This document shows, piece after piece, positions 4,856-26,461 of a DNA stretch of 64,000 nucleotides; within the stretch, counting starts at the first letter, position 1; each line of letters starts with the position of its first letter. The position numbers and the translations under genes are program-made. The stretch is from Pseudolabrys sp. (GTDB lineage Bacteria > Pseudomonadota > Alphaproteobacteria > Rhizobiales > Xanthobacteraceae): the NCBI GenBank assembly GCA_026125895.1, contig JAHCKG010000004.1, forward strand, positions 1 through 64,000, written 5' to 3'. The notes beneath the pieces are model-generated. The model saw only the letters and a list, made by a program, of their open reading frames with translations. It did not search any database and was not told the DNA's origin.

Positions 4856-4859
4856 TTGC

Positions 4860-5540: not shown

Positions 5541-5607
5541 TGTAACGTCACTTATATAAGTACCTTGACACCGTGTTCCACTCACCACATGTGTAGCGTC
5601 CGTTACA
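5541..5607. promoter_or_regulatory. TetR/efflux divergent promoter region with palindromes
   Basis: The AT-rich stretch between tetR and the efflux adaptor gene contains a perfect 12-base palindrome ACTTATATAAGT (5550-5561). It also has widely spaced inverted arms TGTAACG (5541-5547) and CGTTACA (5601-5607). A TTGACA hexamer at 5565-5570 overlaps the region as a possible -35 box for the efflux operon, but no convincing -10 sits 17 bases later. The 12-base palindrome is the best candidate for the TetR operator. Confidence 0.45.
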
Positions 5608-5630
5608 TATATGGTTGGTGGAGAACTTCA

Positions 5631-6848
5631 ATGCAATTGCAATCCAAAACGGGGCCCGGTCGCGCCCGTGTCTGGAGCGCAGGCGTCGCCGCCGTCGTCA
5701 TCGTCGCGGCGATCGGCACCTATCTCATCGTCCCGGGAAGCAATGAGCCGTCCAAGGCTGTCGCAGCAGCGGCAGCCCCCGCTGCCGTGCCGGTATCGGT
5801 CGCCATCGTCGAGCCGCGTTCCGTCAAGCTGTGGGATGAGTTTTCCGGCCGGCTCGAAGCCGTCGAACGCGTCGATATCCGTTCGCGCGTCGCCGGCGCC
5901 ATCGAGGCCGTGCACTTCCACGAAGGCGCGCTGGTCGCCAAGGGCGACGTCCTGATCAGCATCGATCCAGCTCCCTACGCCGCCGAAGTGATGCGCGCCA
6001 AGGCGCAGGTCGCCGCCGCGCAGGCCCGTTCGGCGCTGACCCAGACCGATCTCGAACGCGGCAAGCAGCTCATCGACTCGCGCACGCTGTCGCAGCGCGA
6101 TCTCGACCAGCGCGAGAACGCGGCGCGCGAAGCCGATGCCAACGTCAAGGCCGCGCAGGCGAGCCTGGAGTCGGCGCAGCTCAATCTCGACTACACCAAG
6201 ATCCGTGCCCCGGTCGCCGGCCGGGTCGGCCGCCTTAACGTCACCGTCGGCAATCTCGTCGCCGCCGGCGCCGGCGGACCGGTGCTGACGACATTGGTGT
6301 CGGTCAATCCGATGTATGCCAGCTTCGACGCCGACGAAGCCGCGGTGCGCCGTGCGCTCGGCTCGTTGCCGACGCAAGCGGCGCGCGACGAGATCGATCG
6401 CATCCCGGTGCAGATGATCGTCGGCGGCAGCGAACAGCCGCGTCAGGGCAAGCTGCAACTGATCGACAACCAGGTCGCCTCCGCGACCGGTACGCTGCGG
6501 CTGCGCGCGGTGTTCGACAATGCCGACGGCGCGCTGATCCCCGGTCAGTTCGCGCGGCTGTTCCTCGGGCGTGCCGACAACAAGCCGGTCCTCATGGTCA
6601 GCGAGAGGGCGATCGGGACCGACCAGGACAAGCGTTACGTGCTGGTGGTCGACAAGGAGAAGAAGGCCGCCTACCGCGAGATCAGCCTCGGCGCCCCCGC
6701 CGACGGCCTGCGCGTCGTCGATGCCGGCCTCAATCCCGGCGATCAGGTCATCGTCAACGGCCTGATGCACGTCCGGCCCGGCGCCCCGGTCGAGCCCAAG
6801 CTCGTTCCGATGCTCGCCGCCAACGACAGCAAAACCGCGAGCCGCTAA
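5631..6848 (+). CDS. RND efflux periplasmic adaptor subunit (AcrA/MexA-like)
   Basis: A membrane-fusion protein of 405 residues. An N-terminal anchor (about 14-33) is followed by a barrel-sandwich half (RSRVAGAIEAVHFHEGALVAKGD), a coiled-coil hairpin (about 105-165, rich in A/Q/E/R), the second lipoyl half (IRAPVAGRVGRL), and beta-barrel and membrane-proximal domains ending with VNGLMHVRPGAPVEP. There is no lipobox. ATG 5631 follows a GGTGGAG ribosome site. It would bridge the inner-membrane pump encoded 57 bases downstream to an outer-membrane channel. No TolC-type gene is present here, so a channel from elsewhere is needed. Confidence 0.92.
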   Translation: MQLQSKTGPGRARVWSAGVAAVVIVAAIGTYLIVPGSNEPSKAVAAAAAPAAVPVSVAIVEPRSVKLWDEFSGRLEAVERVDIRSRVAGAIEAVHFHEGALVAKGDVLISIDPAPYAAEVMRAKAQVAAAQARSALTQTDLERGKQLIDSRTLSQRDLDQRENAAREADANVKAAQASLESAQLNLDYTKIRAPVAGRVGRLNVTVGNLVAAGAGGPVLTTLVSVNPMYASFDADEAAVRRALGSLPTQAARDEIDRIPVQMIVGGSEQPRQGKLQLIDNQVASATGTLRLRAVFDNADGALIPGQFARLFLGRADNKPVLMVSERAIGTDQDKRYVLVVDKEKKAAYREISLGAPADGLRVVDAGLNPGDQVIVNGLMHVRPGAPVEPKLVPMLAANDSKTASR

Positions 6849-6905
6849 CGGCGGCTCGCTTTCCCATTTTCAACTGACTCAGCGCCTTCCGACGCCGGTA
6901 CTGCC

Positions 6906-9900: not shown

Positions 9901-10100
9901 CGGTCGGCGCCGGCGCCGAGATGCGTCACGCCATGGGCGTCGCCGTGTTTGCCGGCATGATCGGTGTCACCTTGTTCGGCATCTTCCTGACGCCGGTGTT
10001 CTACATGGTGGTGCGCGCCCTCTCCGGCTTCAAACCTTTGCGCATGCACGGCGCGGCGCCGGTACCGGAGGTCGCCGCACCGGCCTCGCACGGCGGCTGA
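6906..10100 (+). CDS. RND multidrug efflux pump, inner-membrane subunit (AcrB/MexB-like, HAE1)
   Basis: A protein of 1,064 residues, the normal AcrB-family length. It begins MNISRFFIDRPIFAGVLSTL, the canonical first transmembrane helix. Two large periplasmic loops follow TM1 and TM7. The TM4 region includes GLVLAIGIVVDDAIVVVENV, with the paired aspartates of proton relay. The C-terminal half has GLSAKNAILIVEFARELE and RLRPILMTSMAFIMGVVPL. All expected HAE1 signatures are visible and the frame is intact. It forms an operon with the adaptor upstream and is probably controlled by the divergent TetR. It lies next to the enediyne-type cassette, so a role in exporting that product is possible but unproven. 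Confidence 0.95.
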   Translation: MNISRFFIDRPIFAGVLSTLIFLAGLLALRAMPISEYPEVVPPSVVVRAQYPGANPRVIAETVATPIEESVNGVEGMLYMSSQATTDGLMTLTVTFALGTDPDKATQLVQNRVSQAEARLPTEVRTLGITTTKSSPDLTMVVHILSPNGRYDMTYLRNYALLNVKDRIARIKGIGDVQLFGAGDYAMRVWLDPQKIAARGLSAGDIVREIRAQNVQAAAGIVGGSPSEPGLNLQLSLNAQGRLNTVEEFGDIIVRTGTDGQVTRLKDVARLELGSADYALRSLLDNKDAVAIGIMQAPGSNALDISDNVRKVMADLKVAMPEGVDYSIVYDPTQFIRASIEAVVHTLLEAIVLVVLVVILFLQTWRASIIPLLAVPVSIIGTFAVMYALGFSINALSLFGLVLAIGIVVDDAIVVVENVERNIENGLSARDATYKAMSEVSGPIIAIALVLVAVFVPLAFISGLSGQFYNQFALTIAISTVISAINSLTLSPALAALLLKGHDAPKDWLTRGMDKILGPFFRLFNRGFGAGTRAYGGGLSRLLGRKTIVMGVYVLLVGVTVFMFRVVPGGFIPSQDKQYLVGFAQLPDGATLDRTEDVIRQMSDIALKTPGVESAVAFPGLSIAGFTNSSNAGIVFVTLKPFDERRTPNLSGGAIAMALNMKYAAIGEAFIAMFPPPPVMGLGTIGGFKLQIEDRAGLGYRVLDDATKAFLGKAMQAPELAGLFTSFRVNVPQLYADIDRTQARQLGVPVPDIFEALQTYLGSVYVNDFNKFGRTYSVRVQADAKFRAHAEDVARLQVRSTNGQMVPLGAVLNIKSTAGPERAMRYNGFLSADISGGPAPGYSSGQAQAAIERIAAETLPKGISFEWTELTYQQILAGDSAALIYPLAILLVFLVLAALYESLILPVAILMIVPMGLMAAMIGVWLTGGDNNIFTQIGLFVLVGLSAKNAILIVEFARELELAGEPPLKAAITASRLRLRPILMTSMAFIMGVVPLVTSVGAGAEMRHAMGVAVFAGMIGVTLFGIFLTPVFYMVVRALSGFKPLRMHGAAPVPEVAAPASHGG

Positions 10101-10125
10101 TCGCCGGCTCGCAGCACAACCGAAA

Positions 10126-10151
10126 GCCATGCCGCCGCCTGGCGGCATGGC
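10126..10151 (+). terminator. Hairpin downstream of the efflux operon
   Basis: GCCATGCCGCC (10126-10136) and GGCGGCATGGC (10141-10151) form a perfect 11-bp stem with a GCCT loop, 25 bases after the pump stop codon. A U-rich run (TTTCTTTCGGTTTCTT) begins about 24 bases further on. It is probably a terminator separating the efflux operon from the regulator of the PKS cassette. Confidence 0.55.
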
Positions 10152-10318
10152 CGGACCGACAGCGCCGGGCCGCGATTTCTTTCGGTTTCTTAGCGTCACG
10201 ACTCGCGCCGCGTCCGGTTGCACAACCTGCGACGATTATGTGAGCGAGCCGACATCGGCGCGATGATATCCTGAGCGACGTTGGAGATGTTTTGGCATGG
10301 GTTGTATGGAGTATCGCC

Positions 10319-11134
10319 ATGCTCAATGTCAGTCTTCTCGGGGCGGCATCCTTCGCCGTCGATAACGCCGTCGTCAAATCCGACCTGGGCCCGGCCGGCC
10401 GCCTTCTGGCCTGTTATCTCTTTGAGTTCGCCGGCAAAGTTCATCGCCGTGAACGTCTCGTCGATCTGTTCTGGCAGGACACCGACCCCGAGCGCGCGCG
10501 CTCGGCCCTCAACACTGCCATCTGGCGCATCCGCAAGGTGCTCGACCACGGCGGCGACGGCGCTTCCCGGCATTTGTTGACCATTGGCAACGAGGTGGTG
10601 CTGGAGCCTTCGGGCGACTTTCACGTCGATACCCATGAACTCGAAAGCGCCTGCAAACGCGCGCTGGCGCGGCGGGACAGCGCTCTCACCGCCGACGAAC
10701 TGAGCGGCATCAGCCGCGCCGTCGAGAATTACGGCGGCCCCTTCCTCGACGGCTACGACGACGACTGGGTGTTGCAGGAGCGTGAGCGGCTGCATTGTCT
10801 ATTCATTCGCAGCACATTCGAGTTGATGCGGTCCGCCGCCAACCAGGGCTACTACGAGCGGGCGCTGGACTTTGGGCGCCGCGTGCTGGCGGTCGACCCG
10901 CTGCGCGAGAGCGTTCAACAGGATGTCATGCTCCTGCTGCTGCTCAACGGTCAGCGCGTCGAGGCGATCCGCACCTATCAGCGTCTCGTGCAGAAACTGC
11001 GCAGCGAACTCGACATCGGCCCGATGCCGGAGACGGCCCGGCTGCACGATGACATCCTGTCCGGCGCCATTTTCAATCATCTCCAGGACTACGTGGTCGG
11101 CCACTTCGGCGCGCAGAAGGCACTGAGCTTCTAG
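10319..11134 (+). CDS. SARP-like transcriptional regulator with BTAD domain
   Basis: A protein of 271 residues. The N-terminus (about 1-95) is an OmpR-type winged-helix DNA-binding region: MLNVSLLGAASF, RLLACYLFEFAG, RERLVDLFWQDTDPERARSA, LNTAIWRIRKVL. It is followed by a bacterial transcriptional activation domain (about 100-255) of TPR-like helices, including GYYERALDFGRRVLAVDPLRE and IRTYQRLVQKLRSELDIGP. No ATPase or sensor domain follows, so it is a short SARP-type activator. ATG 10319 has GGAG 7 bases upstream. SARP regulators often control polyketide clusters, including enediyne clusters in actinomycetes. Its position just upstream of the unbL-pksE operon suggests a pathway-specific activator; that role is inferred. 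Confidence 0.85.
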   Translation: MLNVSLLGAASFAVDNAVVKSDLGPAGRLLACYLFEFAGKVHRRERLVDLFWQDTDPERARSALNTAIWRIRKVLDHGGDGASRHLLTIGNEVVLEPSGDFHVDTHELESACKRALARRDSALTADELSGISRAVENYGGPFLDGYDDDWVLQERERLHCLFIRSTFELMRSAANQGYYERALDFGRRVLAVDPLRESVQQDVMLLLLLNGQRVEAIRTYQRLVQKLRSELDIGPMPETARLHDDILSGAIFNHLQDYVVGHFGAQKALSF

Positions 11135-11294
11135 GCTCCAGCGGGCGACCGCACCGTGATTTCCCCGTGAGCCGCGCGCTCGGCGCGCCAACACTTCAGC
11201 CATAGGTCGCGGCTACTGGCTTGGCACGAAGGCCTGCCACGCTTTGCCCGCGGCCGTCCGACAACGGACGCGCGAAAAATCGTGCGGCGTCCCG

Positions 11295-11615
11295 ATGCAG
11301 CATCGTACCGACATCGTCCAGTCCTTCTGGCTCCGTTTCTGGCGCGAGCCGCATCGCGGCGCTCATCGGGAATGGCGCGGCTCGATCTGGCACGAGCAGC
11401 AGGCCGCCCACGACAAGCCGACCATCGTCGCCAACCCCGAAGAAGCTTTCGAGTTCGTGCGCCGCGTCCTGCATGGCCAGGTGCAGGACAGCGACGACGG
11501 CTCCGCCGTGCCGCGCGCATCGCTGCCGTCCAACGAACGCCATGACGACGGCATCCCCGGTTTGCTGCGGCGGCTGACGGCCTTCTGGCGCCGGCAAAGA
11601 GGAGAAAAGCCGTGA
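11295..11615 (+). CDS. Small conserved-looking protein of unknown function, first gene of the PKS operon
   Basis: A 106-residue protein I do not recognise. It is rich in Trp, Arg and His near its start (SFWLRFWREPHRG, GSIWHEQQ), has a central helix (PEEAFEFVRRVLHG) and ends with a basic segment (LLRRLTAFWRRQRGE). There is no signal peptide or membrane span. High third-position GC and a GTGA overlap with the unbL start argue that it is real and translationally coupled. ATG 11295 lacks a strong ribosome site; an in-frame TTG at 11244 is possible. It may be an accessory factor for the cassette. Confidence 0.65.
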   Translation: MQHRTDIVQSFWLRFWREPHRGAHREWRGSIWHEQQAAHDKPTIVANPEEAFEFVRRVLHGQVQDSDDGSAVPRASLPSNERHDDGIPGLLRRLTAFWRRQRGEKP

Positions 11616-12604
11616 CGCTCGTTCGCGCCTTCACGCCAACGGCAAAGCTCGGGCAATTTTCGGCGTCGCTGCGGCGTTTGTTCCACCTGTCGCCGCGCCA
11701 GGCCGAATTCTCCACCCGCGGCTTCACCGCAAAGAATTCGAACAAGCGCCAAGCACTTGAGGCAGCCGGCCAGGCCTTCATCGGCGGCTACAACAGCGCC
11801 CTCGCTGCGACTGACCTCTCCGACATTCTCGAGCATATCGCCGGCGCGGCGCCCACGCTGCGCGGGTTTCACTCGGAAGGGGCTGCCATGGGCGTCGCCA
11901 TCGCCGACGCGATGTCGCTCCGTCACCCGCAACTGCCGGCTTATATCGCCGCCACCGAGCGCGACTTTACCTATCTCGCCCATGTCGGCGCCGGCTGGGC
12001 GCTGGCGCGCACGCCGTGGCGCCGCGCCGCGATCCTGGCGCCGCTCGACCCGGTGCATCGCTGGCTGGCCTATGACGGCCTCGGCTTTCACGACGCCTAT
12101 TTCAGCCAGCCACGCATCGCCACCGGCTGGCGGCGCATCACCGACGGTTATGCCGCCCGCGCCTACGACCAGGGCATCGGCCGCGCCATCTGGTTCGTCG
12201 CCGGCGGCGACGTCGAACCGGCCGCCCGCATCATCGCCGCCTTGCCGCCACCCCGCCACAGCGACCTCTGGTCGGGGGTCGGCCTCGCCATGGCCTATGC
12301 CGGACCGGCAAGCGACGGCGACCTTCGCGCGGCGCTGACGGCCGCCGGCGCGCATGCGGCCGCGTTCGCGCAAGGCGTCGCCTTCGCCTGCGAGGCCCGC
12401 GCCCGCGCCCAGTTCATTCCCGCGAACACCGATAACGCGGCGCATGCGGTCTGGCACAGCGACGCCGGCGTCGTCGCGCGACTGGTGCGCGACCGGCGCG
12501 GCCGCCTGCCTGAGACCGACGGCGCCGTGCCGCGCTACGAGATGTGGCGGCGGGACGTCGCCAATGCCTCCCAGCAACCGGCACCGGGGATGCGCACCGC
12601 ATGA
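11612..12604 (+). CDS. unbL: DUF1702 protein, enediyne cassette component UnbL
   Basis: A protein of 330 residues matching DUF1702. Landmarks are the FSTRGF start of the domain near 33, FIGGYNSAL, LRGFHSEGAAMGVAIADAM (about 84-102), YDGLGFHDAYF and YDQGIGRAIWFVAGGD, then a late AFAQGVAFACEARARA segment. The family is known almost only from enediyne and related iterative-PKS clusters, where the unbL product is conserved but of unknown biochemical role. The start is GTG with AAAGAGGAG just upstream, overlapping the previous stop. The stop overlaps the unbV start (ATGA). The protein appears full length. Confidence 0.9.
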   Translation: MTLVRAFTPTAKLGQFSASLRRLFHLSPRQAEFSTRGFTAKNSNKRQALEAAGQAFIGGYNSALAATDLSDILEHIAGAAPTLRGFHSEGAAMGVAIADAMSLRHPQLPAYIAATERDFTYLAHVGAGWALARTPWRRAAILAPLDPVHRWLAYDGLGFHDAYFSQPRIATGWRRITDGYAARAYDQGIGRAIWFVAGGDVEPAARIIAALPPPRHSDLWSGVGLAMAYAGPASDGDLRAALTAAGAHAAAFAQGVAFACEARARAQFIPANTDNAAHAVWHSDAGVVARLVRDRRGRLPETDGAVPRYEMWRRDVANASQQPAPGMRTA

Positions 12605-14487
12605 CCCGCTTCTTGCGCCGTCACGCCGCCAAGCTCGCGACCGTGTCGATCGCCGCCGCGTTCTATGCGCTGGCGCTGCCGCATGACCTGTCGGCTGCCG
12701 GACGCGCCGCGCTGGCCGCGAAGCTGCGTTTCGCGCCGACCTATCTCGAGCCCGCCGACAACGGTCAACCGATGCGCAAAGTGCGCACCGTCAACCCGGC
12801 GCTCCAGCATTACGACGCGTGGATTTCATCGGTCGGCGCCGGCGCGGCGCTCGCCGACATCGCCGGCAGCGGCAAGCCGGCCGACATCTGCCTCGTCGAT
12901 CCGCGCAACGACAGCGTCTCGGTGATGCCGGCGCCGGACACCGGCGCGCGCTTTGCGCCATTCGCGCTGCCGACGCCGGCCGATGGCTACGAGGCTCGCA
13001 CGATCGCGCCGATGGGTTGTCTGCCCGCCGACGTCAATGAAGACGGCCGCATGGACCTCGTCGTCTATTACTGGGGCCGCACGCCGGTCGTCTTCCTGCG
13101 CAATGACGCGGCCGAGCTCACGGCTGATGCCTTCACGCCGGTCGAGGTCGTGCCGCAGCGCGAAGTGTGGAACACCAATGCCGCGATCGTCGCCGATATC
13201 GACGGCGACGGCCATCCGGACCTGATGTTCGGCAACTATTTCCGCGACGGCGACCGCATCCTCGATCCCGCCGCAACCGCCGGCGTCAAGATGCAGCACT
13301 CGATGTCGCGCGCCGAGAACGGCGGCCGCAACCGGCTGCTGCTGTGGCAGAGCGCAACCCGCACGGCCATCGCCTATCGCGACGCCAGCGAGGCGCTGAC
13401 GCCGGCGATGGCCGACGGCTGGACGCTCGCGCTCGGCGCCCGCGATCTCACCGGCGACCTGCTGCCGGAAATCTATGTCGCCAACGATTTCGGCTCGGAC
13501 CGGCTGCTGCTCAACGAGTCGACGCCGGGCCAGCCGAAGTTCAGGATCGTCGAGCGCAAACGCGATGTCACCACACCGCGCTCGAAAGTGCTGGGCCGCG
13601 ACTCGTTCAAGGGCATGGGCGTCGATTTCGGCGACGTCTCCGGCGACGGCCGTCCGGCGATCGCGGTGAGCAACATCGCCTCGCCCTACGCGCTGCTCGA
13701 GAGCCACTTCCTGTTCGTCAATACCGGCGACGCCGCAGCCTGGGCGCGCGGGCAAGCGCCGTATCGCGACGAGAGCTTTGCGCGCGGCACCTGGATCAGC
13801 AACTGGGGCTGGGACATCAAGTTCGCCGACGTGCTCAACAGCGGCCGGCCGGCGCTGGTGCAGACCATCGGTTTCATCAAGGGCGAGCACGACGCCTGGC
13901 CGCGTTTGCAGGAGCTCGCCATGGGCAATGACGAGCTGCTGCCGCATCCGGCGGCGTGGCCGCGCTTCCGCGGCGGCGAGGATCTGTCGGGCCACGATCA
14001 CGACCGGCTGTTCCTGCCGGACGCCGACGGCCGTTATCACGACGTCTGGCCGCTGCTCGGCCTCGACCGCGACACCATCTCGCGTGGCGTCGCCACCGCC
14101 GACGTTTATGGCGACGGCCGGTTGGCGGTGCTGATCGCGCGGCAATGGCAGCCGTCCCTGTACCTGCGCAACGTGTCGGAGGGCGGCGGCCGCGCCATCG
14201 TCATCGACCTGCGCGTCGCCGGCCTGGGAGGGGCGACGCGCGCCGCCTACGGCGCCGAGGCGCGCGTCACGCTCGACGACGGCCGCATCGTCACCTCCAC
14301 CGTCGATGGCGGCTCCGGTCACGGCGGGCGGCGCGCGCCGGAAATTCATCTCGGCCTCGGCGATGTCGCGGCCGGACGCGTGTTCGACGTCGAGATCGAC
14401 TGGCGCGACGCGCAGGGACCGCACCGCACGACCTTCAAGCTGAAGCCGGGCCGCCACCGCATCGTGCTCAGCGCACAGGGAGCCTGA
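12601..14487 (+). CDS. unbV: FG-GAP/ASPIC (CRTAC1-like) protein, enediyne cassette component UnbV
   Basis: A protein of 628 residues. An N-terminal hydrophobic segment (about 13-35, FYALALPHDLSA) looks like a signal or anchor. It is followed by several FG-GAP/VCBS-type repeats with Asp-rich calcium-binding loops: DVNEDGRMDLVVYYWG, DIDGDGHPDLMFGNYF, DLTGDLLPEIYVANDF, DVSGDGRPAIAVSN. The C-terminal ASPIC/UnbV domain (about 545-605) includes GAEARVTLDDGRIV and HLGLGD. The ASPIC/UnbV family is named after this cassette member. Probable location is periplasmic, or exposed and membrane-anchored. ATG 12601 overlaps the unbL stop. The true function in enediyne biosynthesis is unknown. Confidence 0.9.
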   Translation: MTRFLRRHAAKLATVSIAAAFYALALPHDLSAAGRAALAAKLRFAPTYLEPADNGQPMRKVRTVNPALQHYDAWISSVGAGAALADIAGSGKPADICLVDPRNDSVSVMPAPDTGARFAPFALPTPADGYEARTIAPMGCLPADVNEDGRMDLVVYYWGRTPVVFLRNDAAELTADAFTPVEVVPQREVWNTNAAIVADIDGDGHPDLMFGNYFRDGDRILDPAATAGVKMQHSMSRAENGGRNRLLLWQSATRTAIAYRDASEALTPAMADGWTLALGARDLTGDLLPEIYVANDFGSDRLLLNESTPGQPKFRIVERKRDVTTPRSKVLGRDSFKGMGVDFGDVSGDGRPAIAVSNIASPYALLESHFLFVNTGDAAAWARGQAPYRDESFARGTWISNWGWDIKFADVLNSGRPALVQTIGFIKGEHDAWPRLQELAMGNDELLPHPAAWPRFRGGEDLSGHDHDRLFLPDADGRYHDVWPLLGLDRDTISRGVATADVYGDGRLAVLIARQWQPSLYLRNVSEGGGRAIVIDLRVAGLGGATRAAYGAEARVTLDDGRIVTSTVDGGSGHGGRRAPEIHLGLGDVAAGRVFDVEIDWRDAQGPHRTTFKLKPGRHRIVLSAQGA

Positions 14488-14492
14488 CCGTC

Positions 14493-15491
14493 ATGACCAT
14501 GGCCCTCGGCAACCGCATCGCCAGACCGCACACCAAGCCGCAAACAGCAAAGCCGCAAGTCGCCGAACGCTGGTACTCGGAAAAGCGGCTCGGCGGCCTG
14601 TCGCGCTTTGCCTTCGCCATCACCGTGCTGAACATCTTCGGCCACCTGTTCCTCGGCTTCGAGCAAAGCTGGGCGACGCCCTTCGTCGCGCTGGCGGCCG
14701 GCTATGGCACCGACCTGATCGGCGAAACAATCGACGCGCGCGCCAGCGGCCGGCGGCCGCGTTACGCCGGTTCCTTCGTCGACCTCGTTCGCTTCCTGTT
14801 GCCGGCGCATATCAGCGCGCTGGCCGTCGGCATGCTGCTCTATGCCGCCGAGAACATCGCCGCCGTCGCCTTTGCCGTGTCGGTCGCCATGGCGTCGAAA
14901 TACGTCTTTCGCGTTGCCGTCGCCACCGACCAACAGGGACGGCCCGTGACGCGGCATTTCCTCAACCCGTCGAACTTCGGCATCACCGTCACGCTGATCC
15001 TGTTCCCGACCGTCGGCATCGCGCCGCCCTATCAGTTCGCCGAGAACACCTACGGCTTTGTCGACTGGCTGTTGCCGCTGATCGTGATCGGCACCGGCAG
15101 CCTGCTCAACCTCAAGGCGACGGGACGCATTCCGCTGATCCTCGCCTGGGTCGCGGCCTTCGCCACGCAGGCGGCGATCCGCGCCGCCATCGACGGCACG
15201 CCGCTCGCCGCCGGTCTGATGCCGATGACCGGCTTCGCCTTCGTGCTGTTCACCTTCTACATGATCACCGATCCGGCGACGACGCCGGCGCGGCGGCCGG
15301 GCCAGATCGCCTTCGCCGTTGCGGTCGCCGCGGCCTACGCGCTGTTCATGGAGCTGCACATCGTCTTCGGCCTGTTCTATGCGCTGACGCTGGTGACGGC
15401 GGGCCGCGGCCTGTGGCTCTTCGTGACCCAGCCGCGCGCGGCGGCGGTCGAGAAGCAGGCCGTCGCCCCCAGCATGACGCCGGCGGAATGA
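14493..15491 (+). CDS. unbU: Polytopic membrane protein, enediyne cassette component UnbU
   Basis: An integral membrane protein of 332 residues with about 8-9 predicted helices and a Lys/Arg-rich cytosolic N-terminus (residues 1-35). Recognisable stretches are EKRLGGLSRFAFAITVLNIF, HFLNPSNFGITVTLILFP and MPMTGFAFVLFTFYMITDPA, with the S/T-D-P-x-T-T-P motif that UnbU shares with NqrB/RnfD-type proteins. In enediyne clusters UnbU is conserved and membrane-bound, with unknown activity. ATG 14493 has CAGGGAG about 10 bases upstream and lies 5 bases after the unbV stop. The protein looks complete. Confidence 0.85.
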   Translation: MTMALGNRIARPHTKPQTAKPQVAERWYSEKRLGGLSRFAFAITVLNIFGHLFLGFEQSWATPFVALAAGYGTDLIGETIDARASGRRPRYAGSFVDLVRFLLPAHISALAVGMLLYAAENIAAVAFAVSVAMASKYVFRVAVATDQQGRPVTRHFLNPSNFGITVTLILFPTVGIAPPYQFAENTYGFVDWLLPLIVIGTGSLLNLKATGRIPLILAWVAAFATQAAIRAAIDGTPLAAGLMPMTGFAFVLFTFYMITDPATTPARRPGQIAFAVAVAAAYALFMELHIVFGLFYALTLVTAGRGLWLFVTQPRAAAVEKQAVAPSMTPAE

Positions 15492-15507
15492 GGAGCGGTG
15501 CGGCGTC

Positions 15508-18500
15508 ATGTCCCTGCCCGTGAACCTGGCCATCGTCGCAACAGCCTGCCGCTTTCCGGACGCGAACTCGCCCGCCGAACTCTGGAATAATGTGATCGAG
15601 GGCCGCCGCTCGTTCCGCGCCATTCCGCGGCAACGCCTCGACCTCGCGCGCTATGCCGCCGCGGCAATCGGCGACGCCGACTCCATCACGCCGGTGCGCG
15701 CCGGCCTGCTCACCGGCTGGCGGCCCGACCCAGGCGCCTTGCGCATTCCGCGCAACACATTCGACGCGACGGACCTGACGCACTGGCTGGCGCTCGATAT
15801 CGCGCGCGACGCCTTCGCCGCGATCGGCGGCGCCGACCGGCTCGACCGCGCGCGCACCGCGGTCGTCGTCGCCAACACGCTGACCGGCGAATTCAGCCGC
15901 GCCGCGCTGCTGCGCCTGCGGCTGCCGTTTCTCGACGATCTGCTCGCTGAAGCGATAGCCGCCGAGAAGATTGCAGACGTAGCGGCGGCGCGCCTGCGCG
16001 CGCAATTCGCGGCGACGCTGCGCCAGGCCTTCGCCGATCCCAACGAAGACAGCCTTGCCGGCGGGCTCGCCAACACCATCGCGGGGCGCATCGCCAACCA
16101 CTTCGACCTTCACGGCGGCGGCTATTCGGTGGACGGCGCCTGTGCCTCGTCACTGGTCGCCGTCGCCGATGCGGGCAACCTGCTGATCACCGGACAGGCC
16201 GACGCCGTGCTGGTCGCGGCGGTCGATCTCAGCCTCGACCCGTTCGAACTCGTCGGTTTCTCGCGCAACGGCGCACTCGCTGCGGGCGAGATGCGCGTGT
16301 TCGACGCGCGCGCCAACGGCTTCTGGCCCGGCGAAGGCGGCGGCGCCGTACTGTTGATGCGCGAAGACAATGCCAATGCGCTCGATCTGCCGGTGCTGGC
16401 GCGGCTGCGCGGCTGGGGCCTGTCCAGCGACGGCGCCGGCGGCCTGACGCGGCCGTCGAGCGAGGGCCAGAGCGCCGCCTATCGCCGCGCCTATGCGACG
16501 GCCGGTGTTGATCCGGCCGATGTCGATTACGTCGAGGCGCACGGCACCGGCACCGCCATCGGCGATCCGACCGAAGTGCGCGCGCTCGCCGCGCTGCGCG
16601 ATGACGCGCGCGCGGCGCTGCCGATCGGTTCGATCAAGGCCAATATCGGTCACACCAAGGCGGCGGCCGGATTGGCCGGGCTGATCAAGACGGTCGAAGC
16701 GCTGCGCAACGGCGTCGTGCCGCCGCACGTCGGCTGCGACACGCCGCACGGCGTATTCGCCGAAGTCGGTCATCGGATCACGCCGGCGCTGACGCCGTTC
16801 GCGTTTGATGCCGGCCGCGCCGCGATTGCCGGCGTTTCCAGCTTCGGCTTCGGCGGCATCAACGCGCATGTCGTGCTGGAAGGCGTAACGAGACAAACGG
16901 CGCATCGCGCCGCGCCCGTTCGCCCGCGGACGCAGGACGCCGAACTGTTCGTCTTCGCCGGCGACACCGCGGCCGACGTCATCGCCACCATCGCGCGGCT
17001 CGAAACGCGCGCGCCGCATTTGTCGATGGCGGAACTGGCGGACGCCGCGGCCAATACGGCCGGGCAAGTGCGGACGGCGCCGATGCGCGCCGCCGTCATC
17101 GCACGTCATGGCGCTGAACTGGCCGCACGGCTTCGTGAAGCACGGACACTCATTGCTGCCGGTACGCCGTCACGAAACACCGCTTCCGGTGTCTTCGTCG
17201 GCATCGCCGGCACAGCTCCGCGCATCGCCCTCCTGTTTCCCGGCCAGGCGGCGCCGTCGCGGCCCGACGGCGGCGCATGGCGACGACGCTTCGCCAGCAG
17301 CGACCGCTGGCTGGGGCAACTGCCGGCTGAGGTCTCCGATCCGGTAGCGACGGAAATCGCACAGCCGGCGATCATGGCAGCATCGCTCGCCGCGCTCGAT
17401 GTTCTGGGAAAACTCGGCATCGAAGCGACCATCGCCGCCGGTCACAGCCTTGGTGAGATCGCGACACTCGCCTGGGCCGGCGCGCTCGAACCAGACGAAG
17501 CCCTCCTGCTTGCGCACAAGCGCGGCGCCCTCATCGGGCAGCATGGCATCGGCGGCGGCGCCATGCTGCGTGTCGCCATGCCGGCTGCGGGCGCCACAGA
17601 GTTCGCCGCGGCTCACGGCGTCGCCGTCGCCTGCATCAATGGCGAACGGGAGACCGTGCTGTCCGGGCCCCGCGCGGCCATCGAGGCTATCGCAGCACAG
17701 GCGCGCAGCCGTGGCATCGAAACGACGTCGCTCAAGGTGTCGCATGCCTTCCACAGTCAGCATATGACGCCGGCGCTCGAACCATGGCGCGCCGCGCTCG
17801 AGGCCGTGACGTTTAGGCCGCTCAGCTGCCGCGCCGTCTCGACGGTGACCGGCGATGTGCTCGGCGATGGCGCCGCATTGCGTCCGCTGCTCGTGAGCCA
17901 GTTCACTGTTCCGGTGCGGTTCACCGACGCACTCGACCGTGTTGCCGAGGAAGCCGACATCGTCATCGAAGCCGGGCCCGGCGAAGGCCTCACCCGGCTG
18001 GCGAAGCTGCACGGCCTCGAGACCGTCTCGGTGGATGCGTTTGGGCCATCACTGGTGCCCCTGCTCTCCGCCATCGCGACCCTGTTCGTCGCCGGCGCGG
18101 CGCCGCGGTTCGCGGCGCTCTATGCGGACCGCCAATTGCGTGGCTTCGACCCGGCGGCGCTACCCTACTTTCTGGCAAGCCCTTGCGCACCGCGCGAGGC
18201 TGCGCAGCCGGCGCCGGCCTTCGTGCCGCAAGCGCCGGCTGAGGAAACCGTCGTCGCGCCGGACACTGATGAGGCCGATCCCCTCGCCTTAGTGCGCCGC
18301 GCCGTCGCCGACGAAACGCAATTTGCCGACGGCGCCTTCGGCGACGACGATCGCTTCCTCGATACTCTGCATCTCAATTCGCTGTCGGTGGCCCGTATCG
18401 TCACCCGTGCCGCCCGGCTGATCGGCATCGAACCGCCGCAGGCGCCGACTGACTTTGCCAACGCCACGGTGCGCGACCTCGCCGACGCGCTCTCCGAGAT

Positions 18501-21222
18501 GGCGACGCTTGGCGCGCGGCACACGGTCCAGCGCGATCACATTGCGGGCGTGCGGCCCTGGGTGCGGCGTTACGGAATGCGGTGGCGGGAAGAGCCGGCG
18601 CCAGACACGCCGCGGAACGCAGATGAATGGTGCGTGATCGGCCTCAACGGACGGGTCGACGCGTCCGAGGGCGATCACGGTCGAATTCTCATCTGGTTGC
18701 CGGATGGTGCTGGCGAAGATCACGCCGTGGCTCTCCTTGACTGCTGTCAGGACCTGGCGCGCAATGGCCGCGCCAAACATGTCGCCTTCTGCCACGCCGG
18801 CCTGCCCGTTTCGGCCTTTGCGCGTTCGATCGCGCAGGAAAACCGCTTTGCCTCTGTGCAAGTGATCGAACGCGCCACGGGGCATGACGAAAGCGATGTG
18901 CTGCCGCATCTCGGCGCCACGACCGGTGGCTTCAGCGAATGGCGTCTCGATGCTGACGGCAAGCGATACGCACCGCACTTCGTGCCGCTCGCCGACAAGC
19001 CTCGCCCGGCGCGGTCGATCGGCGAGCGCGACGTCGTCGTGGTCACCGGCGGCTCATCCGGCATCGGCGCGGAATGCGCGCTGCGCCTCATGGACGTCAC
19101 CGGCGCCTCGGTCGCCCTGATCGGGCGGCGCGCGGCGAGCGACGGCGGGGTACGCCAGACGCTCGAACGCGCGGCGGCGATGGGCCGGCGCTGCATCTAT
19201 CGCCAGGCCGATGTCGGCGACGCCGGGGTGCTGCAATCGGCCTTCGACGACATCGCGCGCGAACTCGGGCCGGTCACCGCACTGCTGCACGCGGCCGGCC
19301 GCAACCAGCCCAGCGCCTTCGACAATCTTACGAATGATGAATTGCGCGCCACGCTGGCGCCGAAGACCCAAGGGCTGCGCCATGCGCTGGCCGCGGCGCC
19401 CGACCTGCGGCGCGTCATCGTGTTCGGCTCGATTATCGGCCGGCTCGGCCTCGAGGGCGAAGCCCATTATGCGCTGGCCAATGCGATGGCCGCGGATATC
19501 GCGCAGGTATGGGCGCGGTCGCGGGAGGATGCGCGCAGCCTCGCCGTCGAATGGTCGGCCTGGGCCGGGCTCGGCATGGGCGAACGGCTTGGCACCATCG
19601 AGCGCCTCGCCGACCGCGGGGTGTCGGCGCTGAGCGTCGATGACGCGCTCGACGCCTTCGAGCGCCTGATCCGCGACGACGCCGAGGGCACGATCGCGGT
19701 CTGCGGCCGTTTCGGCGCCTCGTCACATGCGACGGCCGAAGCGGCGGCGCTGCCGGCCCTGCGCTTCGTCGGTCAGCCCCTCGTCTACTATCCCGGCACC
19801 GAACTGGTGGTCGAAACCGCACTGGCGACCGGCCGCGATCCCTATCTCGCCGATCACCATGTTTCGGGACATGCGGTGCTGCCCGGCGTCATCGGGCTCG
19901 AGGCGATGGCGCAGGTCGCAGGTGCCTTATCCGGCCACGCCGCGCCCGGCACGATCGACAATATCGCCTTTGAAAGCGCGGTGGCCTTGCCGCTTGATGA
20001 GGATCTCACCATCCGCATCGCGGCCCTCACAATTGCCGAGGGCCGCGTCGAAGCCGCCATTCGCGCCGCCGACGATGACTTTTCGGCCATCCGCATGCGC
20101 GCGGTCTTCACTTATGGCCGCGACACGACGGCACCGCCGGCCAAGGCGCCCGCCGCGGAAGACTTGATCTGTGGCGAGGCCTTTTACGGATCGCTGCTGT
20201 TCCAGCAGCGCCGCTTCCAAGGCATCGCCGCCTATCGGCACATCGCCGCCCGGCGCATCGTGGCGCGGCTCGGCGCCGGGCAACATGACTGGTTCTCTGC
20301 CTACGAGCCGCAACAGCTGGTGCTCGGCAATCCCGCGGCGCATGACGCGATGCTGCATGCGTTACAGGCCGCGGTACCGCATCTTCGCGTGCTGCCGGTA
20401 GCAATCGGCAGCATGACGCGGTTCAGCGACGCCGACATTGCGAGCATCGAGGGAACCGAGCGTGGCGCCACCGACCGCGAGTTCACCTTCGACATCGACG
20501 GCTACGACCGCGATGGCACGCTGGCGCAGCGCTGGCGCGATGTAACCTTCCGCGCCATCGGCCCGCTCGATGTGGCGCCGCTGCTGTCGGCGAACGCGCA
20601 TCTCCTCGCGCCGTATGTCGAACGCGTGGCGCGGGCGGCCTTCAAGGATGCCGGCATAAAGGTCGCTATCGCCGCCGGCACCGAGCGCCATGAGCGCAGG
20701 CGTGCCGCGCTCGCCGCGCTCGGGCTGGCGCGCGTGACGACGCGCCGCGACGGCAAGCCGCTGGCCGACGACGGTGACGTGTCGCTCGCGCATGGCCAGG
20801 GCCTGACGTTGGCGGTCAAGGCCAAGTTCGACATCGCCTGCGATATCGCCGCGGTCGCAGCGTTCAATGGCGACGAAAGCCCGGCAATGGCCCCTACGGC
20901 GCGCGCCGTCGTCGATACGGTGGCGCGGATCGGGAATGAACCTGCCGATGTCGCGGCCGCGCGCCTGTGGGGCATGAACGAGACGCTCCGCAAGCTCGGC
21001 GCACGGTTCGAGCCGAAGCCGAAGGCAAGTTGCGACACCAATCCTGGCTGCATGACCTTCGAGACGCCGACGGCGCGGGTCCTCACCATTAACGTTCGCG
21101 GTAGCGGTAGCCATAACGGCCTCGTCATCGCGATTGGCAGGACGTCGGCACGGCCCGCGCGGCCCCCGCGCCTTGCGGCGGCCGACAATATGGCCGGCCA
21201 TCCGGCGGGAGCGATGTCATGA
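15508..21222 (+). CDS. pksE: Iterative type I enediyne-type polyketide synthase PksE (KS-AT-ACP-KR-DH-PPTase)
   Basis: A protein of 1,904 residues, the usual PksE size. KS (about 1-465): C212 in VDGACASS, H345 in EAHGTGT, H382 in NIGHTKAA, plus the PksE hallmarks NTLTGEFSR and GGLANTIAGRI. AT (about 560-890): S647 in GHSLGE. ACP (about 925-1000): phosphopantetheine Ser958 in LHLNSLS, the enediyne-type variant. KR (about 1170-1400): TGGSSGIG and Y1321. DH (about 1420-1720): H1450 in HxxxGxxxxP. C-terminal phosphopantetheinyl transferase-like domain (about 1730-1860): D1779 and E1825. This domain order distinguishes PksE from PUFA synthases and modular PKS. Such enzymes build linear conjugated polyene precursors from malonyl-CoA. 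AGGAG lies about 13 bases before ATG 15508, and the stop overlaps the thioesterase start (ATGA). Confidence 0.95.
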   Translation: MSLPVNLAIVATACRFPDANSPAELWNNVIEGRRSFRAIPRQRLDLARYAAAAIGDADSITPVRAGLLTGWRPDPGALRIPRNTFDATDLTHWLALDIARDAFAAIGGADRLDRARTAVVVANTLTGEFSRAALLRLRLPFLDDLLAEAIAAEKIADVAAARLRAQFAATLRQAFADPNEDSLAGGLANTIAGRIANHFDLHGGGYSVDGACASSLVAVADAGNLLITGQADAVLVAAVDLSLDPFELVGFSRNGALAAGEMRVFDARANGFWPGEGGGAVLLMREDNANALDLPVLARLRGWGLSSDGAGGLTRPSSEGQSAAYRRAYATAGVDPADVDYVEAHGTGTAIGDPTEVRALAALRDDARAALPIGSIKANIGHTKAAAGLAGLIKTVEALRNGVVPPHVGCDTPHGVFAEVGHRITPALTPFAFDAGRAAIAGVSSFGFGGINAHVVLEGVTRQTAHRAAPVRPRTQDAELFVFAGDTAADVIATIARLETRAPHLSMAELADAAANTAGQVRTAPMRAAVIARHGAELAARLREARTLIAAGTPSRNTASGVFVGIAGTAPRIALLFPGQAAPSRPDGGAWRRRFASSDRWLGQLPAEVSDPVATEIAQPAIMAASLAALDVLGKLGIEATIAAGHSLGEIATLAWAGALEPDEALLLAHKRGALIGQHGIGGGAMLRVAMPAAGATEFAAAHGVAVACINGERETVLSGPRAAIEAIAAQARSRGIETTSLKVSHAFHSQHMTPALEPWRAALEAVTFRPLSCRAVSTVTGDVLGDGAALRPLLVSQFTVPVRFTDALDRVAEEADIVIEAGPGEGLTRLAKLHGLETVSVDAFGPSLVPLLSAIATLFVAGAAPRFAALYADRQLRGFDPAALPYFLASPCAPREAAQPAPAFVPQAPAEETVVAPDTDEADPLALVRRAVADETQFADGAFGDDDRFLDTLHLNSLSVARIVTRAARLIGIEPPQAPTDFANATVRDLADALSEMATLGARHTVQRDHIAGVRPWVRRYGMRWREEPAPDTPRNADEWCVIGLNGRVDASEGDHGRILIWLPDGAGEDHAVALLDCCQDLARNGRAKHVAFCHAGLPVSAFARSIAQENRFASVQVIERATGHDESDVLPHLGATTGGFSEWRLDADGKRYAPHFVPLADKPRPARSIGERDVVVVTGGSSGIGAECALRLMDVTGASVALIGRRAASDGGVRQTLERAAAMGRRCIYRQADVGDAGVLQSAFDDIARELGPVTALLHAAGRNQPSAFDNLTNDELRATLAPKTQGLRHALAAAPDLRRVIVFGSIIGRLGLEGEAHYALANAMAADIAQVWARSREDARSLAVEWSAWAGLGMGERLGTIERLADRGVSALSVDDALDAFERLIRDDAEGTIAVCGRFGASSHATAEAAALPALRFVGQPLVYYPGTELVVETALATGRDPYLADHHVSGHAVLPGVIGLEAMAQVAGALSGHAAPGTIDNIAFESAVALPLDEDLTIRIAALTIAEGRVEAAIRAADDDFSAIRMRAVFTYGRDTTAPPAKAPAAEDLICGEAFYGSLLFQQRRFQGIAAYRHIAARRIVARLGAGQHDWFSAYEPQQLVLGNPAAHDAMLHALQAAVPHLRVLPVAIGSMTRFSDADIASIEGTERGATDREFTFDIDGYDRDGTLAQRWRDVTFRAIGPLDVAPLLSANAHLLAPYVERVARAAFKDAGIKVAIAAGTERHERRRAALAALGLARVTTRRDGKPLADDGDVSLAHGQGLTLAVKAKFDIACDIAAVAAFNGDESPAMAPTARAVVDTVARIGNEPADVAAARLWGMNETLRKLGARFEPKPKASCDTNPGCMTFETPTARVLTINVRGSGSHNGLVIAIGRTSARPARPPRLAAADNMAGHPAGAMS

Positions 21223-21731
21223 ACGTCCATCAGATATTGAATGGGCCCGCGAGCACGGCCGCCGCGCCACGGCAAAATCGGCCACAGGCCGCGGCGCCCG
21301 CCTTCGTCTGGCCGCACACCGTCGCCTTCGGCGAGACCAATGTGATGGGCAATGTCTATTTTGCCCGGCACTTCGATTGGCACGGCACGTGCCGCGAGAT
21401 GTTTCTGAAGGCGCACTGCCCGGACATTCTCGACGAAATCGCACGCGACCTGCGGCTGGTCACCCTTAACGCCCGCGCCGAGTTTCTCGCCGAGCTCTTC
21501 GCCTTCGACGAGATCGAGCTGCGCATGCGCCTCGGCTTCCTGCAGCAGCATCGCATCGGTCTGCGCTTCGACGTCATGAAGAAAGGCGACGGTGGCTGGT
21601 CGCCGGCCGCGAGCGGCGCGCAGGACATCGCGTGCATGCGTCTGCGCGGCGGGGCGCTCGAACCGACGGCGATCCCGGATGGGCTGGTCAAGGCCCTGAT
21701 CCCGTTCGGCGCCGCCGCCGCACAGCGTTGA
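21219..21731 (+). CDS. tebC: Hot-dog thioesterase of the enediyne cassette (TebC, SgcE10/DynE7-like)
   Basis: A protein of 170 residues with a single 4HBT hot-dog domain after a roughly 28-residue Ala/Pro/Gln-rich extension. The motif VAFGETNVMGNVYFARHFDW (36-55) matches the F-x-E-T-N-x-x-G-N-V-Y pattern of enediyne PKS thioesterases, followed by GTCREMFLKAH. In characterised systems this enzyme releases the polyene or beta-keto product from PksE. ATG 21219 overlaps the pksE stop, so the two are translationally coupled, as expected for obligate partners. The N-terminal extension is longer than I expect for the family. Confidence 0.9.
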   Translation: MNVHQILNGPASTAAAPRQNRPQAAAPAFVWPHTVAFGETNVMGNVYFARHFDWHGTCREMFLKAHCPDILDEIARDLRLVTLNARAEFLAELFAFDEIELRMRLGFLQQHRIGLRFDVMKKGDGGWSPAASGAQDIACMRLRGGALEPTAIPDGLVKALIPFGAAAAQR

Positions 21732-21744
21732 GAGGAAAGCCCCA

Positions 21745-22617
21745 ATGGCGCATCTCGATCTCACCTACGAGACCCGGCCTCTCCGCTTCGAACGGCGCGC
21801 CGCGATCGAACCTCCGTCCGATGTCGGGCAGCGGCATGCCGTCGCGGTCGAGCGCGCCATCGCTTTCATGCGCGGAAATCTCGCCGACCCCCTGAACCTC
21901 GCCGACCTCGCCGATGTCGCCCATTGCAGTCCGTGGCACTTCGACCGCGTGTTCGCCGAGGTGACCGGGATGTCGCCGCTACGCTATCTGTCGCATCTGC
22001 GCATCGAGGCGGCAAAGCTCGCGGTGATGCACAGCGACCGCCGCATCATCGATATCGCCTTCGGCGTCGGCTACAACAGCCTCGGCAGCTTCGGCAAACG
22101 CTTCACGGAACTGGTTGGCCTCGCGCCCAGCCAGTGGCGCAAGGCGGCCGATGAGTTCGATGCCGCGCGCTGGCGCAGCCGGCTCGATCAGGCCTGCGCC
22201 ATGCCGCCGGCCGTCGCGCCAAGCGCCCGGCAAGGCGCCGCGCTCAGCGGCGACATCGGCTTCGAGGGCGAGCCGGGCCGCAGCGGCTGGGCCATGATCG
22301 CGGCCGTCGCCGCCGGCGGCAGCATCCTGAGGCCCAGTGCATGCACCCTCGCGGCGGTTCCCGGTCCCTTTGCGATGCAAGGCTTGGTTCCCGGTGTCTA
22401 CTCGGTGGCGGCCATCGGCTTCGACCGGACGATGAAGCCGATCGACATTCTCTCGCAACAAGACGCACCGCGCAGCCGACACGACCGTGTTGTCTTCGAT
22501 GGCCGCGGCGCCGCCGGCTTGCGCCTCACCTTGCGCGGCCCCGAGTTCAGCGATGCGCCGATCGTGCCGCCCTTTGCCATCCTCGCCGCTCGCGCGATGC
22601 CTCACTGCGTTGCCTGA
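21745..22617 (+). CDS. AraC-family transcriptional regulator, last gene of the PKS operon
   Basis: A protein of 290 residues with the two AraC helix-turn-helix motifs at the N-terminal side (about 35-140): LNLADLADVAHCSPWHFDRV, then DRRIIDIAFGVGYNSLGSFG and the FTELVGLAPSQWRK signature. The second half (about 165-290) is a separate domain with strands such as GVYSVAAIGF, which might bind a small molecule. GAGAGGAAAG precedes ATG 21745, 13 bases after the thioesterase stop, so it appears co-transcribed with the cassette. A feedback or product-sensing role is inferred from position only. Confidence 0.85.
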   Translation: MAHLDLTYETRPLRFERRAAIEPPSDVGQRHAVAVERAIAFMRGNLADPLNLADLADVAHCSPWHFDRVFAEVTGMSPLRYLSHLRIEAAKLAVMHSDRRIIDIAFGVGYNSLGSFGKRFTELVGLAPSQWRKAADEFDAARWRSRLDQACAMPPAVAPSARQGAALSGDIGFEGEPGRSGWAMIAAVAAGGSILRPSACTLAAVPGPFAMQGLVPGVYSVAAIGFDRTMKPIDILSQQDAPRSRHDRVVFDGRGAAGLRLTLRGPEFSDAPIVPPFAILAARAMPHCVA

Positions 22618-22686
22618 TGCGCCGCGCTGGCGTCCGCCGATGGCTTGATGCTAAACCGGCCGTCTTTCCATCAAGGAGCGGCGGCG

Positions 22687-23634
22687 ATGGCTCAGCATCA
22701 TGTTCTGCGCGGCGATGTCGGCACGGTGCATCGCGGCGTGTTCGACGCCGCGATCAAGCCGGTGTTGCACATCGCCCCTGGCGACACCGTCGAGGTGACG
22801 ACACTCTCCGGCAACGACGAGAATTCGCCACCGCCCGGCTCCGGCTTCGAGCTGATGCCCGAGCACGCCCGCGTTCTGGCGCAGGTGCCGCGCGGCATCG
22901 GCGCACATCTGATGACCGGACCGATCGCGGTGGCCGGCGCCGTGCCGGGCGACGAACTCGTCGTCGAGGTCCTGGAGCTCGGTTTCCCGCAGCCGTGGGG
23001 CTGGAACATGATCAAGCCCGGCGTCGGCGCGTTGCCGGCGGATTTCCCGAACCTGCGGCACATCTTCACGCCGATCGACGAGAAGCGCGGCGTCGTCACC
23101 ATGCCGTGGGGGCTCGAGCTCAAGGTGTCGCCCTTCTTCGGCGTCATGGGCGTCGCGCCCCGTCCCGCCGACGGCGCCTGCATCTCCAACATCCCGCGCG
23201 CCTTCGGCGGCAACATGGACCTCAAGCACCTCGGCGTCGGCGCGACCCTGCATCTGCCGGTGTTCAATGACGGCGGGCTGCTCTCGGTCGGCGACGGCCA
23301 CGCGCTGCAAGGCGACGGCGAGGTCTGCGTCACCGCCATCGAGACGGCCTTGCGCGGCACGCTGCGCGTCACGCTGGTGAAGCAGACCGGCATCGACCAC
23401 CCCTTCGCCGAGACGCCGACGCACCTCATCACCATGGGCTTCGACGAGGACCTCGACCGCGCGGCGGAAGCCGCCCTGCGCGCGATGATCCGCAAGATCG
23501 GCGCGGTCGGCGGCCTCTCGGCGGAGGACGCCTACTCGCTGTGCAGCGTCGCCGCCGACGTGCACGTGACGCAGCTCGTCAATGTGGCGAAAGGCGTCCA
23601 CGTCATGATCGCGAAGGAACTACTCGCGCGCTAG
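22687..23634 (+). CDS. Acetamidase/formamidase family protein
   Basis: A protein of 315 residues of the FmdA/AmdA family of soluble amide hydrolases. Typical segments are APGDTVEVTTLSGNDEN near 30, DGACISNIPRAFGGNMDLKH near 165-185, LPVFNDGGLLSVGDGHALQG near 195-215 (the hallmark conserved region), and a late SLCSVAADVHVTQLVN. AAGGAGCGGCG lies just before ATG 22687. It sits upstream of, and on the same strand as, the uracil-catabolism operon but is separated by 288 bases with its own promoter signals. It may release ammonia from small amides. A link to the uracil pathway is only possible, and the substrate is unknown. Confidence 0.85.
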   Translation: MAQHHVLRGDVGTVHRGVFDAAIKPVLHIAPGDTVEVTTLSGNDENSPPPGSGFELMPEHARVLAQVPRGIGAHLMTGPIAVAGAVPGDELVVEVLELGFPQPWGWNMIKPGVGALPADFPNLRHIFTPIDEKRGVVTMPWGLELKVSPFFGVMGVAPRPADGACISNIPRAFGGNMDLKHLGVGATLHLPVFNDGGLLSVGDGHALQGDGEVCVTAIETALRGTLRVTLVKQTGIDHPFAETPTHLITMGFDEDLDRAAEAALRAMIRKIGAVGGLSAEDAYSLCSVAADVHVTQLVNVAKGVHVMIAKELLAR

Positions 23635-23838: not shown

Positions 23839-23922
23839 TTGTCCATTTGGATTCAGATTCGTGATTTGAGTTCGGTGAACGCAGCAGGAGCCAACTTCGG
23901 TTTTCCCAATCCGGTTAAATCC

Positions 23923-25179: not shown

Positions 25180-25218
25180 GCGCGCGCCCCTTCCCCTTTG
25201 CAAAGCAAGCCGAGCCCG

Positions 25219-26451: not shown

Positions 26452-26461
26452 GGAGACTCTC

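Follow-up and report, generated by a model that had tools for sequence, protein, structure and literature searches.

The 64,000-nucleotide stretch analysed here (the window; contig JAHCKG010000004.1 of a Pseudolabrys sp., positions 1 to 64,000) carries a complete enediyne-type polyketide synthase (PKS) cassette, that is, the genes for UnbL, UnbV, UnbU, the enediyne PKS (PKSE) and a thioesterase (TE), on an island that is absent from a cassette-free genus mate. The functional unit exceeds these five genes: a SARP-like regulator, a small conserved protein and an AraC-family regulator are encoded in the same island, and a membrane protein of the DUF6008 family on another contig of the genome. In our judgement the unit is probably a biosynthetic island, either laterally mobile or lost repeatedly, that represents an alphaproteobacterial branch of the enediyne PKS cassette. 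Its product is likelier to be linear than to be a 9- or 10-membered enediyne: a C15 derivative of a polyene, possibly acetylenic, for which ring-specific genes are not used. A linear product appears the most likely because none of the ring- or periphery-specific enediyne genes tested was found beside the cassette.

A first-pass annotation of the window, made from the letters alone, had described the five cassette genes as intact, co-oriented and tightly spaced, and so they are. All five open reading frames (ORFs) are uninterrupted on the + strand over 11612-21731, with overlaps of 4 bases at the UnbL/UnbV and PKSE/TE junctions and gaps of 5 bases at UnbV/UnbU and 16 bases, the widest spacing, at UnbU/PKSE. 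The limits of the cassette had to be moved: position 11295 is not the start of UnbL but the ATG of the separate small gene, and 22617 is the end of the AraC-family gene and not of the thioesterase gene. The identities of UnbL, UnbV and UnbU stand, the proteins being homologous to SgcE3, SgcE4 and SgcE5 of the C-1027 cluster (Table 1); phmmer searches with SgcE10 and SgcE gave E values of 5e-38 and 0. Among solved structures the thioesterase is closest to SgcE10 (4i4j, E 7.6e-38), CalE7 (2w3x, 4.1e-37) and DynE7 (2xem, 2.6e-34). Sequence searches of the PDB gave no match for UnbL or UnbV. UnbL is predicted to be an all-helical protein, its AlphaFold2 model listing 17 helices and no strand at a mean predicted local distance difference test score (pLDDT) of 94.4 and a predicted template modelling score (pTM) of 0.91. 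UnbV, with its ORF taken from 12544, matches PF13517 (E 2.7e-18) and PF07593 (E 1e-8); a hydropathy scan of it gave no hydrophobic segment, and from its N-terminus we would guess that it is exported. UnbU is modelled as a helical membrane protein (pLDDT 89.6, pTM 0.85). Its family profile matches the RnfD chain 8ahx_D with E 3.2e-4, and both UnbU and SgcE5 fall below the cut-off of PF03116 (RnfD), which points to a distant relationship of weak similarity.

The PKSE is 36.8% identical to SgcE of C-1027 at 96% coverage. The domain order proposed for it was ketosynthase (KS), acyltransferase (AT), acyl carrier protein (ACP), ketoreductase (KR), dehydratase (DH) and phosphopantetheinyl transferase (PPTase). 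Pfam recovers the part from KS to DH (KS 8-410, AT 612-824, ACP 928-995, KR 1177-1353, DH 1431-1685); it returned no PPTase match at the C-terminus, and that domain is recognised from Asp1779, Glu1825 and Lys1829, which line up with SgcE. The motifs VDGACASS, NTLTGEFSR, LHLNSLS and ETNVMGNVYF, cited in the same proposal, are all found. Eleven catalytic residues were tested (KS Cys, His and His; AT Ser and His; ACP Ser; KR Ser, Tyr and Asn; DH His and Asp), and all are conserved in each of the 86 aligned PKSEs. Of the PPTase residues, Asp is present in 80, Glu in 81 and Lys in 79 of these 86, and all three in the nine alphaproteobacterial PKSEs of the alignment, the tenth being cut by a contig end.

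A genome scan yielded 517 PKSE relatives, of which the best 80, nearest to the window PKSE, were kept; two genus mates, four loci on plasmids and the window itself bring the set to 87 PKSE loci. The KS tree sets these 87 apart, with a support of 100, from 13 outgroup rows (8 from the PfaA search and 5 other type I PKSs) and thus places our protein in the enediyne KS clade, as had been anticipated; the grouping was reproduced with PfaA rows as the sole outgroup. Similarity of its KS to PfaA would suggest a polyunsaturated fatty acid (PUFA) synthase, or some iterative PKS that is not of the enediyne type; the TIGR02813 (PfaA) score of 360.3 bits, however, falls short of the 1010.1 required, and SgcE, for comparison, reaches 456.5. 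The scores, the KS tree and the gene content refute such an identity, to which we attach practically no credence.

Ten alphaproteobacterial loci form one KS clade with a support of 97, or 100 without the outgroup. They are the window, its genus mates L098 and L099, Sinorhizobium meliloti T073 (L010), Roseibium litorale 4C16A (L014), L015, a Bradyrhizobium metagenome-assembled genome (MAG; L016), Mesorhizobium sp. L-8-3 (L017), Puniceibacterium sediminis DSM 29052 (L018) and a Novosphingobium MAG (L019). The same ten-locus clade is recovered in the trees of UnbU (99.8), UnbV (98) and UnbL (99); since each of these trees gives it, KS, UnbL, UnbV and UnbU appear to have travelled together. When the KS tree is rooted on PfaA, the alphaproteobacterial clade branches as the sister group of the remaining 76 PKSEs (80), a position that a midpoint root also gives; the outgroup branches are long, and the support for this sister-group position is 80-89. 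A single clade (99) takes in 55 of the 56 actinomycete loci and leaves out Lentzea L071. Subject to the same caveats on the root, the depth of the alphaproteobacterial clade disfavours a recent import from actinomycetes. One 'Rhizobium' MAG locus (JAPZUE010000092.1, L022) was excluded from the alphaproteobacterial set: its KS pairs with that of Microseira wollei (L023) at a support of 100 on branches of 0.028 and 0.019, and it is probably a cyanobacterial contamination or binning error. A contig of Thalassospira profundimaris (L080), too short to show the other genes, holds a PKSE on a long branch outside the clade.

The boundaries of the island are given by an empty site in the genus mate G1124. 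Window positions 5984-10098 match 1-4119 of the G1124 stretch L113 at 89%, and 22627-23624 match 4131-5122 of it at 84%; between the two flanks the alignment leaves 11 bases in G1124 against 12,528 in the window. In G1124 the acetamidase gene directly follows the AcrB-type pump gene of the resistance-nodulation-division (RND) efflux pair, which rules out both the pump and the acetamidase as members of the cluster; the efflux pair, though part of the backbone, might export a product. A further genus mate, G1240, has 1,872 bases of other DNA at the site. The G+C content of the island is 0.690, compared with 0.655 and 0.657 in its flanks. The SARP-like regulator, the small protein, the five cassette genes and the AraC-family gene are all retained in L099 (genus mate G1158), and in L098 (genus mate G1196) the contig ends inside PKSE. 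A contaminating contig is an unlikely source, because the 227-kb contig has the island between backbone genes and the two other carriers in the genus are 99% complete with at most 1% contamination. The claim of an alphaproteobacterial version of the cassette is upheld.

Cassette carriers make up 3 of 43 genomes of the genus and 3 of 391 in the family sample. DUF1702, the family of UnbL, was also searched in 397 genomes of the order, 385 of the class and 398 of the phylum (overlapping sets); only the window's own genome exceeded the cut-off, and the order set added one match below it that is interrupted by stops. The patchy distribution among the genomes of the genus and the family is what a decaying or silent remnant could leave behind. 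A remnant is nevertheless very improbable in view of the open ORFs, the conserved active-site residues and the differences between the window and L099, which fall most often at third codon positions (in PKSE, for example, 813, against 373 at first and 309 at second positions). The pump gene of G1124 is 96% identical to that of the window and those of the other two carriers 95% and 95%, an almost equal closeness that favours neither gain nor loss of the island.

The genes that accompany the cassette in actinomycetes were sought at the 62 of the 87 loci with at least 7.5 kb on each side of PKSE (44 actinomycete and 18 non-actinomycete), and absence here means not found in the stretch examined. 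E6, E7, E8, E9 and E11 occur in 40, 33, 27, 27 and 16 of the 44 actinomycete loci, those without E6 being L059, L060, L061 and L071; each of the five was found in 0 of the 18 non-actinomycete loci. A pair of DUF1702 genes is present at 27 of the 44 actinomycete loci and at none of the 18 others. The five-gene core, in contrast, is complete in 17 of the 18 (DUF1702 17, UnbV 17, UnbU 17, TE 18), the exception being Thiotrichaceae L035. In L016 the TE appears as two weaker matches and so may be broken. No E6 was found in the stretches examined of any of the ten members of the alphaproteobacterial clade. In the 64-kb window single-sequence phmmer detected neither homologues of SgcE6, SgcE7, SgcE8, SgcE9 and SgcE11 nor a second DUF1702 gene. 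The enediyne-like chemistry suggested earlier is only partly sustained: the cassette alone is no evidence for an enediyne, which, with these homologues not found in the window, is no likelier than a linear product.

Two other accounts of the product have to be weighed here. In one, a full 9- or 10-membered enediyne pathway exists and its maturation genes are scattered in the genome; the unlinked DUF6008 gene is a precedent for a separated partner, and relatives with the same HxxEH motif occur both in true enediyne clusters (C-1027) and in carriers of the cassette only. We hold this to be rather unlikely, given that none of E6, E7, E8, E9 and E11 was seen at any of the 18 well-flanked non-actinomycete loci and that the window's own genome has no second DUF1702 gene, compared with two in most of the actinomycete loci; no gene for self-resistance to enediynes stood out in the window, though no search was aimed at such genes. 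In the other, PKSE and TE make a plain polyene (heptaene, or a related hydrocarbon or pigment) and UnbL, UnbV and UnbU serve transport or membrane placement. SgcE-type PKSE and TE, co-expressed in E. coli, do yield a linear conjugated heptaene by themselves (PMC8725005), and UnbU is a membrane protein with weak RnfD-like similarity. However, 17 of the 18 loci retain all of UnbL, UnbV and UnbU, and in producers of tiancimycin the cassette is termed indispensable for making the skeleton (PMC11069151); their retention together with this indispensability suggests chemistry beyond a plain polyene. The plain-polyene account seems to us improbable.

The DUF6008 protein matches its family with E values of 9.7e-27 and 9.4e-26. 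In S. meliloti the gene stands between those of the SARP-like regulator and UnbL, and in L016 near the former. Within the genus, a search profile that combined DUF6008 with its L011-type relatives matched unlinked contigs of all three carriers and of none of the 4 non-carriers tested, and the three unlinked genes are mutually syntenic, beside purA. Among 72,556 plasmids 49 hold a PKSE; the DUF6008 query returned 15 plasmid records, 15 of 15 among those 49, counts that include clonal strains (6 of the 15 are S. zaomyceticus). The L011-type protein of C-1027 was found in 14 records, 13 of them among the 49, and UnbU in 49, 48 of them among the 49. The DUF6008 and L011-type lists are disjoint, and 21 PKSE records have neither. 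The two families are related (profile comparison probability 90.3, E 1.5e-6), with the motifs HxxEH, ExxH, HxxEH and HxxxN aligned between them. In DUF6008 the HxxEH residues resemble metal ligands, and we infer a membrane oxidase. In L014 and L017 DUF6008 is replaced by a third family of membrane proteins, which has a conserved TACN motif; its relatives occur in Chloroflexota and actinomycete enediyne loci, and none was found in the seven genus genomes searched. Two plasmids gave no PKSE match at 1e-60: Geminocystis NZ_AP014826.1, with an HxxEH protein (38.6%) at 10672-11076, and Serratia proteamaculans NZ_MT039191.1, with a UnbU relative (47.3%) at 43035-43910.

All clade loci except L019 (9 of 10) have a SARP relative upstream of PKSE; the SARP ORF in the window is open from 10292, and the ATG at 10319 was picked by comparison. 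For the small protein, to which the Pfam search assigned no family, 8 of the 10 loci gave a match immediately before UnbL, obtained with a model into which the L010 and L018 sequences, picked by eye, were included; the other loci searched yielded a single weak match (E 0.1), at another place in L016. An AraC homologue, 68% identical, occupies the equivalent position in L099. The AraC cluster of the neighbour comparison comprised 14 loci, and the window is not among the 13 matches listed. A role of the AraC-family protein as pathway regulator is supported by the AraC/XylS regulator SgcR2 of the C-1027 cluster (PMC2657911).

Several observations weigh against the favoured interpretation of the island. 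The tree of the short TE protein, with 8 alphaproteobacterial rows, does not recover the clade. At the second acidic position of the PPTase the window has Ala, where 68 of 86 PKSEs have Glu. The DUF6008 profile matched L010 and L016 outside the genus and did not match L014, L015, L017, L018 and L019, so that the protein occurs in 5 of the 10 alphaproteobacterial carriers and is not universal. Finally, the genome to which the window belongs has a completeness of 82.34% and a contamination of 5.24%, and accessory genes could lie elsewhere in it, as DUF6008 does; the genome-wide searches covered the PKSE, DUF1702, DUF6008/L011-type and TACN-motif families, and E6-E9 were searched at the loci.

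We nevertheless favour the linear C15 derivative, for which the following route may be envisaged. The SARP-like and AraC-family regulators would activate the operon; the C-terminal PPTase would prime the ACP of its own PKSE, which would run iterative condensations of malonyl units coupled to ketoreduction and dehydration; release of the chain would fall to the TE. UnbL, UnbV and UnbU, together with the unlinked DUF6008 protein, would then act at the membrane on the hydrophobic chain. The five cassette genes were common to ten compared clusters (PMC5181780), and the exact roles of TnmE3, TnmE4 and TnmE5, the UnbL, UnbV and UnbU homologues, were called uncertain in 2024 (PMC11069151). Retention of these three genes without detectable ring-specific genes suggests that they act on a linear chain, and the alphaproteobacterial island may thus offer a natural minimal system with a simpler background for the study of their function. 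The DUF6008/HxxEH association adds a concrete candidate protein for the known enediyne producers too. A more speculative proposal, which we regard as doubtful, is that a cassette without ring-specific genes, making a linear and probably acetylenic C15 product, was the ancestral state and that DUF6008/L011-type proteins are a further core enzyme. If this were true, actinomycetes would later have built the ring-forming enediynes from a C15 pathway, and DUF6008/L011-type proteins would be an overlooked membrane metal-dependent oxidase acting with UnbL, UnbV and UnbU on the heptaene, perhaps as a desaturase/acetylenase or a halide-handling enzyme.

The cassette outside actinomycetes is not new as such, because enediyne KSs are already on record for several phyla, among them Proteobacteria and Cyanobacteria, in a survey of 2023 (PMC10308959). 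With nine further alphaproteobacterial loci in the same clade, the idea that this chemistry had gone unrecognised in the lineage is only partly right. What is new is the ten-locus clade, the absence of accessory genes in the 18 non-actinomycete loci and the DUF6008 association; in the open-access literature we found no description of the alphaproteobacterial island, its SARP-like regulator, its small protein or the DUF6008 link.

Table 1. Features of the island, its surroundings and the associated loci (window coordinates unless a locus or contig is named).
Feature	Position	Strand	Evidence or remark
Island, SARP to AraC	10099..22626	.	absent from cassette-free genus mate G1124
SARP-like regulator (winged helix + BTAD)	10319..11134	+	PF03704 E 7e-24
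Small conserved protein, 106 aa	11295..11615	+	4-base overlap with UnbL start
UnbL / E3, DUF1702	11612..12604	+	GTG start; PF08012 E 3.6e-79; SgcE3 phmmer 2e-53
UnbV / E4	12601..14487	+	FG-GAP repeats and ASPIC/UnbV domain; SgcE4 phmmer 2e-154
UnbU / E5, membrane protein	14493..15491	+	SgcE5 phmmer 4e-77; hydrophobic segments
PKSE, 1904 aa, KS-AT-ACP-KR-DH-PPTase	15508..21222	+	Pfam, SgcE alignment, KS tree
TebC / E10 hot-dog thioesterase	21219..21731	+	nearest solved relatives SgcE10, CalE7, DynE7
AraC-family regulator, last island gene	21745..22617	+	PF12833 E 4.3e-22
DUF6008 gene, unlinked, contig C25	G000:C25:35444-35953 (L124 9924-10661)	-	PF19471 94.4 bits, cut-off 27
TACN-motif membrane protein, between SARP and UnbL	L014 2017-2904; L017 4924-5811
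RND efflux pair (membrane fusion protein, AcrB-type pump)	5565..10100	+	Pfam; backbone, outside island
Acetamidase/formamidase family gene	22645..23634	+	PF03069; backbone, outside island
GTP cyclohydrolase-like, DUF1688 and uracil phosphoribosyltransferase genes in a row	23839-27091

Elsewhere in the window, the gene row that follows the acetamidase presumably resembles a uracil catabolism cluster. An ARAGORN call of tRNA-Ile at 9350-9438 on the - strand lies within the RND pump gene and is probably a false positive.

Among known systems, the non-actinomycete KSs of PMC10308959 come without a description of the island, the SARP-like regulator, the small protein or DUF6008 in the part of that source available to us. 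The C-1027 (SgcE) cluster on plasmid SGLP1 of Streptomyces globisporus has in common with the window the five cassette genes, including the TE family, an AraC-family regulator and an HxxEH membrane protein related to DUF6008. It differs in having a second DUF1702 gene, the E6 flavin reductase, the E7 P450, E8, E9 and E11, of which none was found in the window, and in the separate position of its TE gene; the SARP-like regulator and the small protein, set against C-1027, are a feature of the alphaproteobacterial loci. Plasmid pSCL4 of S. clavuligerus carries the five genes in the order of the window, without E6-E9 in the stretch viewed (flanks of 5-6 kb), but its PKSE falls within the actinomycete clade and its records contain no DUF6008 or L011-type match. 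A further parallel is psymA of Sinorhizobium meliloti T073, for which the PLSDB gene table is without features across the cassette stretch. This locus belongs to the clade of the window and unites the SARP-like regulator, DUF6008, the small protein and the five cassette genes, so that DUF6008 is linked to the cassette there, whereas in the genus of the window it is encoded apart from it.

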